DNA of 38,703 nt from Bacteroidota bacterium (GTDB taxonomy: Bacteria > Bacteroidota > Bacteroidia > UBA7662), in the NCBI GenBank assembly GCA_016868875.1, contig VGFN01000003.1, forward strand, positions 1 to 38,703. The letters are read 5' to 3'. Shown here piece after piece: positions 32,257 to 36,291 of the stretch. The translations under genes and the position numbers were made by a program. The notes beneath the pieces were generated by a model. That model saw only the letters and a program-made list of their open reading frames with translations. It did not search any database and was not told the DNA's origin. How positions within the stretch are numbered: the stretch's first letter is position 1; each line of letters begins with the position of its first letter.

Positions 32257-33672
32257 ATGACGAAAGACTCTGTGAATCAATACCCTGCTCAGGGTGGAGT
32301 TGGTCCATCGCGATCGGAACAAACCCAACCCATGGCCAAACGTTGGCCTATGCACCTTCGCATCTTGATCGGCATAGGGTTGGGATTGGCCTTTGGTCTC
32401 AGTGCTTCGGCAGGAGGATGGTCATCATGGGTCTTGGATTGGGTGAAGCCTGTGGGAACCGTCTTCGTGAATCTTTTGAAATTAGTCGCTATTCCTTTGG
32501 TTTTGGTTTCCTTGGTGGATGGTGTTACAGGCCTCAAGGACCTTCGAAAGCTATCAAGCATGGGAGGACGAACTTTGTTGATTTTTTTGATGACCACCGT
32601 CTGCGCAGTGAGCATAGGGCTCGTCACCGTGAACCTGCTACAGCCTGGGGATTATTTATCCGAAACCAAAAGAGATGAATTGCGGGCACGTTTCGCATCC
32701 GCTAGTTCTAGAGGATTGGACAAAGCTGAAGCCTTCAAGGAAGAAGGTCCTTTGGCAGCGGTTATCAATATGGTGCCCGAGAATATCTTCCATGCGCTGT
32801 CTCATAACGGCTCCATGTTGCAGGTGGTATTCTTTGCCTTGTTTATGGGGATTGCGATCATGGCCCTGCCTGCCTCCCAGACCAACTTGGTTCGGGATTT
32901 GTTTGGACAACTTAATCGTATCATCCTGCTGATGGTGGATATGATCATGGTGATTGCCCCTGCAGGAGTATTTGCCTTGATTTCTTCGTTGATCGCAGAT
33001 TTTGCCGGTGACAAGCCTGGCGAAGCGGTGGAATTGTTGGGCGCCTTATCGGTTTATGCTTTGGCGGTGGTTGTAGGTTTGATTGCGATGATGGTGATGG
33101 TTTATGCAACCTTTTTAAGACTTTTCGGGAATTACAATCCCCTTAAATTTTTTGGCATAATGAGCCCTGCACAGCTGCTTGCATTTTCAACCTCATCCTC
33201 CAATGCAACGCTGCCGGTTAATTTGGAATGTGCCGAAAAGTTGGGTGTTCGAGAAGAAGTGAGGACCTTCGTTTTGCCTTTAGGAGCCACTGTCAATATG
33301 GATGGAACCAGTTTGTACCAAGCCGTTGCGACGGTTTTTATTGCCCAGGCTTTTGGTCAACATTTAGGGTGGGCTGATCAATTAACCATTGTTTTAACAG
33401 CAACCCTTGCGTCCATTGGTTCTGCTGGTGTGCCAGGTGCGGGAATGGTGATGTTGGTCATTGTCCTTCAATCGGTGGGCTTGGAAACGGCGGGGATCGC
33501 CTTGATTGTGGCCGTGGACCGAATCTTGGACATGATGCGAACCGTCGTCAATGTGACGGGTGATACCATGACGGCCGTATTGGTCGATCGATGGATGGGA
33601 GCAAAGCCCATGGACAAGATATCTGATGTTCAATCAAGTTCTTGGAATCAATCTCGTTCTGACCAACCCTGA
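32257..33672 (+). CDS. Dicarboxylate/amino acid:cation symporter (DAACS family)
   Basis: FSTSSSNATLPVNLECAEKLGV, PLGATVNMDGTSLYQAVATVFIAQAFG, ASIGSAGVPGAGMVML, DRILDMMRTVVNVTGD. Confidence 0.93.
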   Translation: MTKDSVNQYPAQGGVGPSRSEQTQPMAKRWPMHLRILIGIGLGLAFGLSASAGGWSSWVLDWVKPVGTVFVNLLKLVAIPLVLVSLVDGVTGLKDLRKLSSMGGRTLLIFLMTTVCAVSIGLVTVNLLQPGDYLSETKRDELRARFASASSRGLDKAEAFKEEGPLAAVINMVPENIFHALSHNGSMLQVVFFALFMGIAIMALPASQTNLVRDLFGQLNRIILLMVDMIMVIAPAGVFALISSLIADFAGDKPGEAVELLGALSVYALAVVVGLIAMMVMVYATFLRLFGNYNPLKFFGIMSPAQLLAFSTSSSNATLPVNLECAEKLGVREEVRTFVLPLGATVNMDGTSLYQAVATVFIAQAFGQHLGWADQLTIVLTATLASIGSAGVPGAGMVMLVIVLQSVGLETAGIALIVAVDRILDMMRTVVNVTGDTMTAVLVDRWMGAKPMDKISDVQSSSWNQSRSDQP

Positions 33673-33680
33673 GGCCCCTC

Positions 33681-33713
33681 AAAAAAAATACCCCCCGGGA
33701 ATCGGAGGGTATT
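33681..33713 (-). terminator. Intrinsic terminator for the minus-strand HNH/AP2 gene
   Basis: Minus strand reads AATACCCTCC-GATTCCC-GGGGGGTATT followed by a T-run. The 10-bp stem has one U-G wobble and ends in a U tract. Confidence 0.75.
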
Positions 33714-33751: not shown

Positions 33752-34270
33752 TTATTTTTTGCCTTTGCCAAATAATTCGGCTGTCTTCTTTTTGTAAGCT
33801 GCAGAGGCTTCTGCAGCGGTATTGAAGGAACCTAAATCAAGGCGGACACGATTATTGAAGAGAACGGCTTTGAATTTGTTGCCGCTTTTGATCACGCCTT
33901 TGTAGCCGAATTTATTTTCGGTTTTGTTCACATTGCGAACGACCACGGAACGCGTGGCAAATTCCAAATTCTCTAAACGGCAATCCAACGGGTTGTTGTT
34001 GATAACATTCACGAATAAACGCTCTTTGGTAGCCTTTTTCTTGCAGAAAATTTCGGCAACAAGCTTGTGCAGGTAAATGGTTTCGTTTTTGTAGGTTCCA
34101 TCCCCCAAAGGCCAATTCTTCTGAAAGAAGGCATACCCTCTGGAATGGCGGCGTAGGTTGGCTAAAAAGCCAACTTTGACCAAATACGGGTTTTGGTTAA
34201 GAAACTTGGCGACTTTATCGTCTACTTGGGCAGTTTCTTTGGAGTTTTTGAGCTTGAGTTTAACAGACAT
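33752..34270 (-). CDS. HNH-endonuclease-like protein with C-terminal AP2 DNA-binding domain; HNH catalytic core apparently degenerate
   Basis: VDD...GYAFFQKN...IYLHKLVAEIF...RLFVNVINNNPLDCRLENLEFATRSVVVRN (HNH_3-like, His replaced) then GYKGVIKSGNKFKAVLFNNRVRLDLGSFNTAAEASAAYKKKTAELFG (AP2-like). Confidence 0.82.
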   Translation of the reverse strand: MSVKLKLKNSKETAQVDDKVAKFLNQNPYLVKVGFLANLRRHSRGYAFFQKNWPLGDGTYKNETIYLHKLVAEIFCKKKATKERLFVNVINNNPLDCRLENLEFATRSVVVRNVNKTENKFGYKGVIKSGNKFKAVLFNNRVRLDLGSFNTAAEASAAYKKKTAELFGKGKK

Positions 34271-34344
34271 CGTGTTATGGTTTAATTAAACAGATATTTA
34301 AGGATGCCAAAGGTAATATAAATTTTGTACTAAATTATCACTTT

Positions 34345-36291
34345 TTAGTTTAAAAACAATTTTAACCTCGTACTCAAATCCTTAAAGTCCTCATTTTCAG
34401 CATTTAAACGATTGAATCTTTCGGGTTCAGTGAGGAATTTTTCTCTTTGAGTATTGTTTTCTTGCTGTTGAATGGCCCATTGCGGACGTGTTCCGAAGCC
34501 CCCAAATTCCACCAAAAAGTCCAAAATACCCTGCTTTTCGCCATCAAACAATGATTTCTCAGTATCGGAATACAATATTACAGAAAGGAATAGAGGCTCA
34601 TTGGAGGCCTTAGAATTGGACTCGGATGGGCGATCCCGATTCTCTTCAAGGGGCATATTTCTGCTCAAAATGCCCTCCAAACCGCCCAGGTTGTGGTCTC
34701 TGCATTCTTGGACCAGGTGTTGCCATAGCTTTTGCAGATTTTGACAGGACGTCGTGGGTGGGGGGGACCACTGGTGACTGCTTTCTTTTGGGATTGTCTT
34801 GATATTTCCCTGGGTTTTACCCAAATGTCCCCGCAATGTTTTAAGGAAATCTACCGTGGTGGCCGTACCGGTATTTTGGGCGTTCGAAGAAATCGGCTTA
34901 GGAGAATGCTCTTTTTGATGGCTGCCACCGCCTTGGGTTTCAGGGATTGATTTTTGGTCAGAGAAGTCCTTTAATGCTCGTTCGCTTGATTCTTGTACCC
35001 TTAATTCTTGTACCCTTAATTCTTGAAAGTTGTTAGGGTTCGACTCAGACGGTACTTTGGCTTGAATTTTGACTTGAGCGGGTGTTCTAAAGTCGGCAAC
35101 CGGTAATCGGGTTGTGATGCCTTGCAGGGGATGGGTCTCGGATTCAGCGGGAGGTTTTGGCGCTTGAATCGGTTCAAGATTTATATTCTTTTGCCCTCTT
35201 TGGGCTAAATAACAAATTTTCATCACAGCGGTTTCTACGAGCAGCCGTGGCTGCCTGGATTGTCGGTATTGCAGTTCGACCTGATTGAGAAGGTGCAATC
35301 CCGCCAGGAGCATATCGGTGCTCGTTTCTTGAGATTGAATGATAAGCTGTTGCCTGTATTCCTGGCCGGAATCGATGAGTTCAGTAGTTCCTGGTGTCTT
35401 GGCCATCAATATGTTACGAAAATGGGAGGCCATACCAATCACCCAAAGAATGGAATCGTAACCACGAGCAACCATGCTATCCAGCGCTTGCAGGGTATGC
35501 GTCGGATCGCCAGCAAACATTGTTTTGGTGCATTCCACAAAAAGGGCTTTATCGAGTACACCCAATTGATCGCAAACGAGGCTGTTGGTGAGGTTCCCTC
35601 CACTGAATCCGGCCAATTGATCCAGCATGGTTAAAGCATCCCGCAAGGCCCCGTCTGAACGTGATGCAATGGTCAAAAGGGCATCGTTCTCATAGACAAT
35701 CTCTTCGGATCGGCAAACCAAGGCCAAACGTTCGGCGATATCCTGAAGCCGTATTCTTTTAAAATCAAAAACCTGACAACGGGACAAAATGGTGGGAAGG
35801 ATCTTGTGTTTTTCCGTGGTTGCCAAAATAAACTTAGCGTAGGTAGGGGGTTCTTCGAGGGTCTTGAGCAAGGCATTGAATGCCGCGGTGCTGAGCATGT
35901 GGACCTCATCGATGATATAGACTTTGTAGTCGCTACCCTGGGGTGGATAACGGACTTGCTCAACGAGGGAGCGAATATCGTCCACCGAATTGTTGGAGGC
36001 GGCATCCAATTCATGGATGGCAAGGGACCTGCCTTGGTCAAAGGACTGGCATGATGGGCATTCTCCGCAGGCCTCTTGATGGCTATCCCTGAAGGAGCAA
36101 TTGATGGTTTTGGCCAAAATGCGAGCACAGGATGTCTTGCCGACACCTCGGGGCCCGCAAAACAGGTAGGCCTGGGCCAATTGGCCCTTGGCAATGGCGT
36201 TACGCAGGGTGGTGGTGATATGGTCCTGACCGACCAGCTCCTCAAAGCGTGGGGGGCGGTATTTGCGGGCGGAGACCTGGTAATCTTGCAT
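34345..36291 (-). CDS. dnaX: DNA polymerase III subunit gamma/tau
   Basis: YRPPRFEELVGQDHITTTLRNAI, LFCGPRGVGKTSCARILAKTINC, Zn-binding CxxC, IIDEVHMLSTAAFNALLKTLEEPP, SRSDGALRDALTMLDQL. Confidence 0.96.
   Translation of the reverse strand: MQDYQVSARKYRPPRFEELVGQDHITTTLRNAIAKGQLAQAYLFCGPRGVGKTSCARILAKTINCSFRDSHQEACGECPSCQSFDQGRSLAIHELDAASNNSVDDIRSLVEQVRYPPQGSDYKVYIIDEVHMLSTAAFNALLKTLEEPPTYAKFILATTEKHKILPTILSRCQVFDFKRIRLQDIAERLALVCRSEEIVYENDALLTIASRSDGALRDALTMLDQLAGFSGGNLTNSLVCDQLGVLDKALFVECTKTMFAGDPTHTLQALDSMVARGYDSILWVIGMASHFRNILMAKTPGTTELIDSGQEYRQQLIIQSQETSTDMLLAGLHLLNQVELQYRQSRQPRLLVETAVMKICYLAQRGQKNINLEPIQAPKPPAESETHPLQGITTRLPVADFRTPAQVKIQAKVPSESNPNNFQELRVQELRVQESSERALKDFSDQKSIPETQGGGSHQKEHSPKPISSNAQNTGTATTVDFLKTLRGHLGKTQGNIKTIPKESSHQWSPPPTTSCQNLQKLWQHLVQECRDHNLGGLEGILSRNMPLEENRDRPSESNSKASNEPLFLSVILYSDTEKSLFDGEKQGILDFLVEFGGFGTRPQWAIQQQENNTQREKFLTEPERFNRLNAENEDFKDLSTRLKLFLN
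34989..35025. repeat. 15-bp in-frame tandem repeat (about 2.5 copies) within dnaX
   Basis: ATTCTTGTACCCTTA x2 followed by ATTCTTG; on the minus strand it encodes ELRVQ-ELRVQ in the linker region. Confidence 0.9.

Follow-up and report, generated by a model that had tools for sequence, protein, structure and literature searches.

A probably domesticated, nuclease-dead HNH-AP2 protein in the chromosomes of Bacteroidota

The window analysed here, a stretch of 38,703 nucleotides from a Bacteroidota bacterium (contig VGFN01000003.1), carries among housekeeping genes a short gene whose product is built like the mobile HNH-AP2 homing endonucleases. What is such a gene doing there, and is its product still a nuclease? 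A preliminary description, made from the DNA letters, proposed a domesticated protein with a dead nuclease core. The comparisons reported below support this proposal: the catalytic residues are gone throughout the family, and the gene is under strong purifying selection and vertically inherited. We consider it likely that the protein, descended from an endonuclease, now binds chromosomal DNA as a regulator or a nucleoid protein.

The gene, its neighbours and its product

The open reading frame lies where the preliminary description placed it, on the minus strand, and encodes the 172 residues announced. It is a real gene: 71 genome contigs carry relatives that are full length and collinear with it. 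Its neighbours, described beforehand as dctA-like and dnaX, are supported by Pfam as an SDF dicarboxylate symporter and a clamp-loader subunit; beyond dnaX lie the ribosomal S6-S18-L9 genes. The features of the locus are as follows.

32257–33672, convergent with the HNH-AP2 gene: SDF dicarboxylate symporter gene (Pfam)
33687–33713, minus strand: strong intrinsic terminator, downstream of the HNH-AP2 gene
33752–34270, minus strand: nuclease-dead HNH-AP2 gene (ATG start, stop included; 172 residues)
34308–34315, minus strand: TACCTTTG, putative promoter element that matches the Bacteroidota -7 consensus TAnnTTTG
34345–36291, same strand as the HNH-AP2 gene and upstream of it after a 74-base gap: dnaX, clamp-loader subunit (Pfam)

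The element TACCTTTG sits in the gap between dnaX and the HNH-AP2 gene, and the six closest relatives retain it. TAnnTTTG is the known Bacteroidota -7 element, and we read TACCTTTG as part of the putative promoter of the HNH-AP2 gene. Since this element lies in the gap and a strong terminator follows the gene (the "own terminator" predicted earlier), the gene is probably transcribed on its own, read-through from dnaX being possible. No sigma-70-type promoter was found at the gene, as expected for Bacteroidota, and no Rfam element near it; upstream alignments across host families, inspected by eye, displayed no obvious common site. As previously noted, neither a mobile element nor an intron is seen beside the gene. 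High expression was considered as well: the codon bias of the gene ranks at the 98th percentile when taken raw, but the signal shrinks when amino-acid content is controlled (z = 2.1, 88th percentile) and is not decisive.

The motifs first listed by eye (VDD, IYLHKLVAEIF, FVNVINNN and YKGV...LGSFNTAAEASAAYKKKTAELFG) are all present in the product, which comprises three regions.

34073–34270, minus strand: N-terminal region, residues 1–66, with the VDD segment and the family-specific, nearly invariant LRxHSxGxAxFQKxW segment (conservation in 125 sequences)
33932–34072, minus strand: HNH-derived region, residues 67–113, catalytically degenerate (profile and alignment)
33767–33907, minus strand: AP2 domain, residues 122–168, three strands and a helix (family profile, AlphaFold2 model and fold match)

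Homology to phage HNH endonucleases and HNH-AP2 proteins is clear: PHROG 99 aligns to residues 40–169 (E 8.4e-20) and matches all 16 diverse family members tested, and phage HNH endonucleases align at about 30–35% identity. Single-domain models say less, HNH_3 scoring 20.3 bits, under the Pfam cut-off of 24.8, AP2 not being called by Pfam and NCBIfam offering no meaningful family; the defence library yields a single match, to a model of a homing endonuclease. When the family profile was compared with the PDB, it retrieved plant AP2/ERF structures (E 1.8e-6 to 9e-4) and, weakly and through the HNH part, the homing endonuclease I-HmuI (1u3e, E 0.2). An AlphaFold2 model built from 36 sequences (mean pLDDT 84.5, pTM 0.61) is confident for each half and has a low-confidence linker (residues 108–117); the relative placing of the halves is unreliable. 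This model superimposes on the GCC-box AP2 domain 1gcc at 0.9 Å over 50 columns; its other AP2 fold matches include TEM1 and WRI1, I-HmuI is also among the fold matches (E 0.03), and 97 viral HNH models match the family fold at E ≤ 0.001. Thus, the protein contains both an HNH-type sequence and fold (PHROG 99, sub-threshold HNH_3, I-HmuI) and, by profile and fold match, an AP2 fold, that is a three-stranded sheet packed on a helix. The predicted order, HNH followed by a C-terminal AP2, is therefore correct, and the structural comparison proposed with it agrees on both domains.

The family is basic, with a median net charge of +13. Most of the Arg and Trp positions taken to contact bases in plant ERFs differ in the profile alignment with the family. 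The bacterial AP2 domains may read other sites than plant ERFs, and, because those contacts are mostly not kept, the binding site of the family is not predictable from them.

Loss of the active site and purifying selection

The preliminary description had noticed a Val at the catalytic His position. To place this residue, the family was aligned with seven relatives, five from phages and two chromosomal ones of mobile type, and the active-site columns were counted in 125 distinct full-length members from several Bacteroidota families. Two sites stand out in the gene.

34004–34009, minus strand: codons of Asn88-Val89, which stand where active HNH enzymes have Asp-His; among 125 members, none carries Asp at position 88 or His at position 89
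33941–33943, minus strand: codon of Val110, which replaces the conserved Asn of a metal-ligand column; this residue is A, I, V, S or M in 125 of 125 members and Asn in phage HNH-AP2 proteins

The seven relatives read [V/I]-D-H ... N-L ... x-N-x-x-N, and the family V-x-[A/F/L/V/T/I/C] ... L-D-C-R ... N-L ... x-[A/I/V/S/M]-x-R, so that Val89 faces the His of "VDH" in the phage proteins. The Val seen beforehand is residue 89, the catalytic His being replaced by A, F, L, V, T, I or C in all 125 members, and the Asn of column 110 is likewise found in none. An intact His/Asn/His triad did not turn up elsewhere in the protein; rather, the adjacent Asp and the metal-column Asn have gone too. Following I-HmuI, we take these columns, which are aligned and not proven, to be the metal ligands and general base. 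With such an active site, cleavage is presumably lost in practice. Two residues of the ancestral region persist: His68 (in the IYLHK motif) and Asn101 are nearly invariant in the family, and Asn101 is also invariant in the aligned phage and mobile-type relatives. Separately, one genome (G534) has two mobile-type HNH-AP2 genes, both of which keep the DH motif.

Other positions are invariant in this family specifically. R40, H42, S43, G45, Q50, T64 and Y66 are conserved at about 100% in the 125 sequences, C97 and R112 are invariant too, and the segment that includes residues 40–50 (LRxHSxGxAxFQKxW) is not common to the aligned phage relatives. Among these residues, R40, H42, S43, G45, Q50, C97 and R112 point to a constrained function of the family's own.

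The gene is under strongly purifying selection, which answers the dN/dS question raised at the outset: the ratio is 0.006–0.021 against four species of the same genus, and its median is 0.031 in Pontibacter. Compared with a sister species (G412), the HNH-AP2 protein is 92.3% identical, versus 58% for dnaX, and ranks eighth in conservation among 127 comparable proteins (from about 419 kb versus 505 kb), with RpoB seventh and RpoC tenth. Its conservation is thus at the level of ribosomal and RNA-polymerase proteins.

Distribution and inheritance

One scan of a species-level genome collection yielded 71 relatives, nearly all full length and 49–99% identical, in Pontibacter, Adhaeribacter, Cesiribacter, Nafulsella, Salinivirgaceae and other Bacteroidota. 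In the taxonomic family of the window, 15 of 17 genomes have the gene, in one copy each, and the two that lack it are drafts (420 contigs; 77% complete). It is absent from four of four genomes of other families in the same order, present in 80 of 150 genomes of another Bacteroidota family (f6), and found in about 1% of an even sample of the phylum. The gene is therefore core in particular families and absent from most others; the preliminary description, which took it for a core-genome gene, was right for those families and not for Bacteroidota as a whole. Close relatives were found neither in viral contigs nor on plasmids, plasmids and phages having only distant mobile-type HNH proteins, and the genome of the window has a single match to the family.

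Some copies depart from this picture. The copy of one own-family draft genome, G402, consists of two frame-broken pieces (L096/L097), which may reflect either a misassembly or a true pseudogene. Genome G538 has two tandem dead-family copies (L156:5416-6788), one of them strongly diverged, and several f6 genomes have two copies. One member (L069:6001-6705) carries a long Lys/Ala/Val-rich, histone H1-like C-terminal tail.

Within host families, the gene is inherited vertically and keeps its place. In the tree, the own-family, f6, Pontibacter, Cesiribacter and Salinivirgaceae-type members form one clade each, and all dead members group together, with low support at that root (0.58). dnaX adjoins the gene in 13 of 13 own-family loci read (L002-L014); in f6 the gene is divergent from a gene that is ribD by sequence (cluster 13) in 17 of 20 loci, and in Pontibacter from an oxidoreductase gene and a peptidase gene. 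Synteny with dnaX, which the preliminary description suggested surveying, thus holds at every locus read in the own family and not in other families. These neighbours are housekeeping genes, conserved within host families and different between them, and the context therefore names no function. Sporadic distribution, insertion as or within an intron or intein or as a free-standing element, and changing places, all features of mobile genes, are not seen; nor are sporadic, intact orthologues, the orthologues being collinear, vertically inherited and stably placed. Taken together, the dN/dS values, the 92.3% identity and the vertical clades are unlike those of a decaying endonuclease.

A further chromosomal HNH-derived family, of about 187 residues, occurs in another Bacteroidota family, f3 (L076:1303-1860, L077, L078, L079, L082). 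It keeps the HNH His, has Ile for the adjacent Asp and Met for the metal-column Asn, and ends in a helix-turn-helix-like part. It is present in 42 of 100 f3 genomes and, in a more diverged form, in 38 of 150 f6 genomes, and is possibly a parallel domestication. Mutual exclusion of the two families was considered and is not seen, several f6 genomes having both.

Probable function and known systems

An endonuclease that is still, or was recently, active with an unusual active site would account for the clear descent from HNH-AP2 endonucleases and for the near-invariance of His68 and Asn101. However, not one of the 125 members retains the general-base His, the Asp beside it or the Asn of the metal column, and His68 is no replacement for the lost His, since active relatives have it too; moreover, the distribution is vertical and mostly single-copy, neighbours are stable, and no intron or mobile element is seen beside the gene. 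We regard this explanation as very unlikely. Hardly more probable is a defence against mobile elements, in which an immobile dead copy would occupy homing sites or control related active endonucleases. It would fit the genome in which the dead form coexists with two intact HNH-AP2 genes (G534; L130, L169, L170) and the homing endonuclease model as only defence-library match, but a conservation of 92–99% is unlike that of an arms-race gene, and small genomes in which no intact relative turned up, such as that of the window, retain the gene.

A new role other than DNA binding, for example in RNA or ribosome binding or as a protein–protein scaffold reusing the old fold, deserves more weight, while remaining unlikely in our view. 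The most conserved segment, LRxHSxGxAxFQKxW, is family-specific and lies outside known HNH or AP2 DNA contacts, the conservation is that of ribosomal proteins, and the AP2 domain has mostly not retained the base contacts of plant factors. Against this, the two domains that the protein inherited serve as DNA-binding folds in its relatives, and its composition is basic. These two points, with the H1-like tail of one member, are the reasons for which we favour binding to chromosomal DNA as the most likely activity.

A domesticated, nuclease-dead HNH-AP2 protein that descends from an endonuclease and binds chromosomal DNA is thus the probable explanation. A mobile HNH-AP2 homing endonuclease would have been captured in a Bacteroidota chromosome, lost cleavage and been kept for its DNA-binding parts. 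The AP2 sheet would read the major groove; beside it, the DNA would be held by the emptied HNH fold together with the basic N-terminal region, with a grip like that of a homing endonuclease on its target, without cutting. The protein may act as a regulator or as a nucleoid-architectural protein, roles that we do not rank and for which the positive charge and the H1-like tail are suggestive only. The data suggest that the enzyme of a parasite was converted, in several lineages of Bacteroidota, into a DNA-binding protein of the chromosome. A bolder reading, which we see as evenly balanced, is that of a hitherto undescribed chromosomal family, the counterpart in bacteria of the proposed origin of plant AP2 factors: a mobile HNH-AP2 endonuclease would have given rise to a DNA-binding protein, essential or nearly so, with a new functional surface, LRxHSxGxAxFQKxW. 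In the literature searched, largely open-access papers, no description turned up of an HNH-AP2 gene that is nuclease-dead and fixed in the chromosomes of bacteria, nor anything on AP2 or NUMOD4 proteins in Bacteroidetes.

Among known proteins, I-HmuI, an HNH_3 homing endonuclease, resembles the family in its HNH part, by the weak profile match and the fold match given above; it is an active intron-encoded nicking enzyme, and its C-terminal DNA-binding part differs from the family's AP2. The HNH-AP2 endonucleases of protists, cyanobacteria and phages ("IPA-HNH" genes; PHROG 99; PMC10448857) share with the family the fold and the order VDD segment, YLH motif, HNH core and C-terminal AP2, whereas the family lacks the catalytic residues, has a fixed LRxHSxGxAxFQKxW segment, is immobile and is vertically inherited. 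CapR of the phage satellite PLE, as cited in PMC10448857, is likewise a domesticated homing endonuclease, a DNA-binding repressor that arose from a T5orf172 enzyme; it belongs to another nuclease family and resides on a mobile satellite, unlike this chromosomal gene under long-term purifying selection. If the second HNH-derived family is a parallel case, such domestication would be a repeated route. Finally, plant AP2/ERF factors, whose descent from HNH-AP2 endonucleases was proposed by Magnani et al. 2004 (as cited in PMC10448857), share the AP2 fold and the proposed path from endonuclease to non-cutting DNA-binding protein; the bacterial family differs in keeping the HNH as a dead fold and in not conserving most plant base contacts. 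Intermediates between HNH-AP2 endonucleases and plant AP2 factors are not at hand. The family looks like one that survives in present-day bacteria: its nuclease is emptied, its AP2 is kept, and its gene is fixed in the chromosome, with a conservation close to that of RNA polymerase. Cultivable hosts exist, Pontibacter among them, so that the passage from a selfish nuclease to a DNA-binding protein of the cell is open to experiment.
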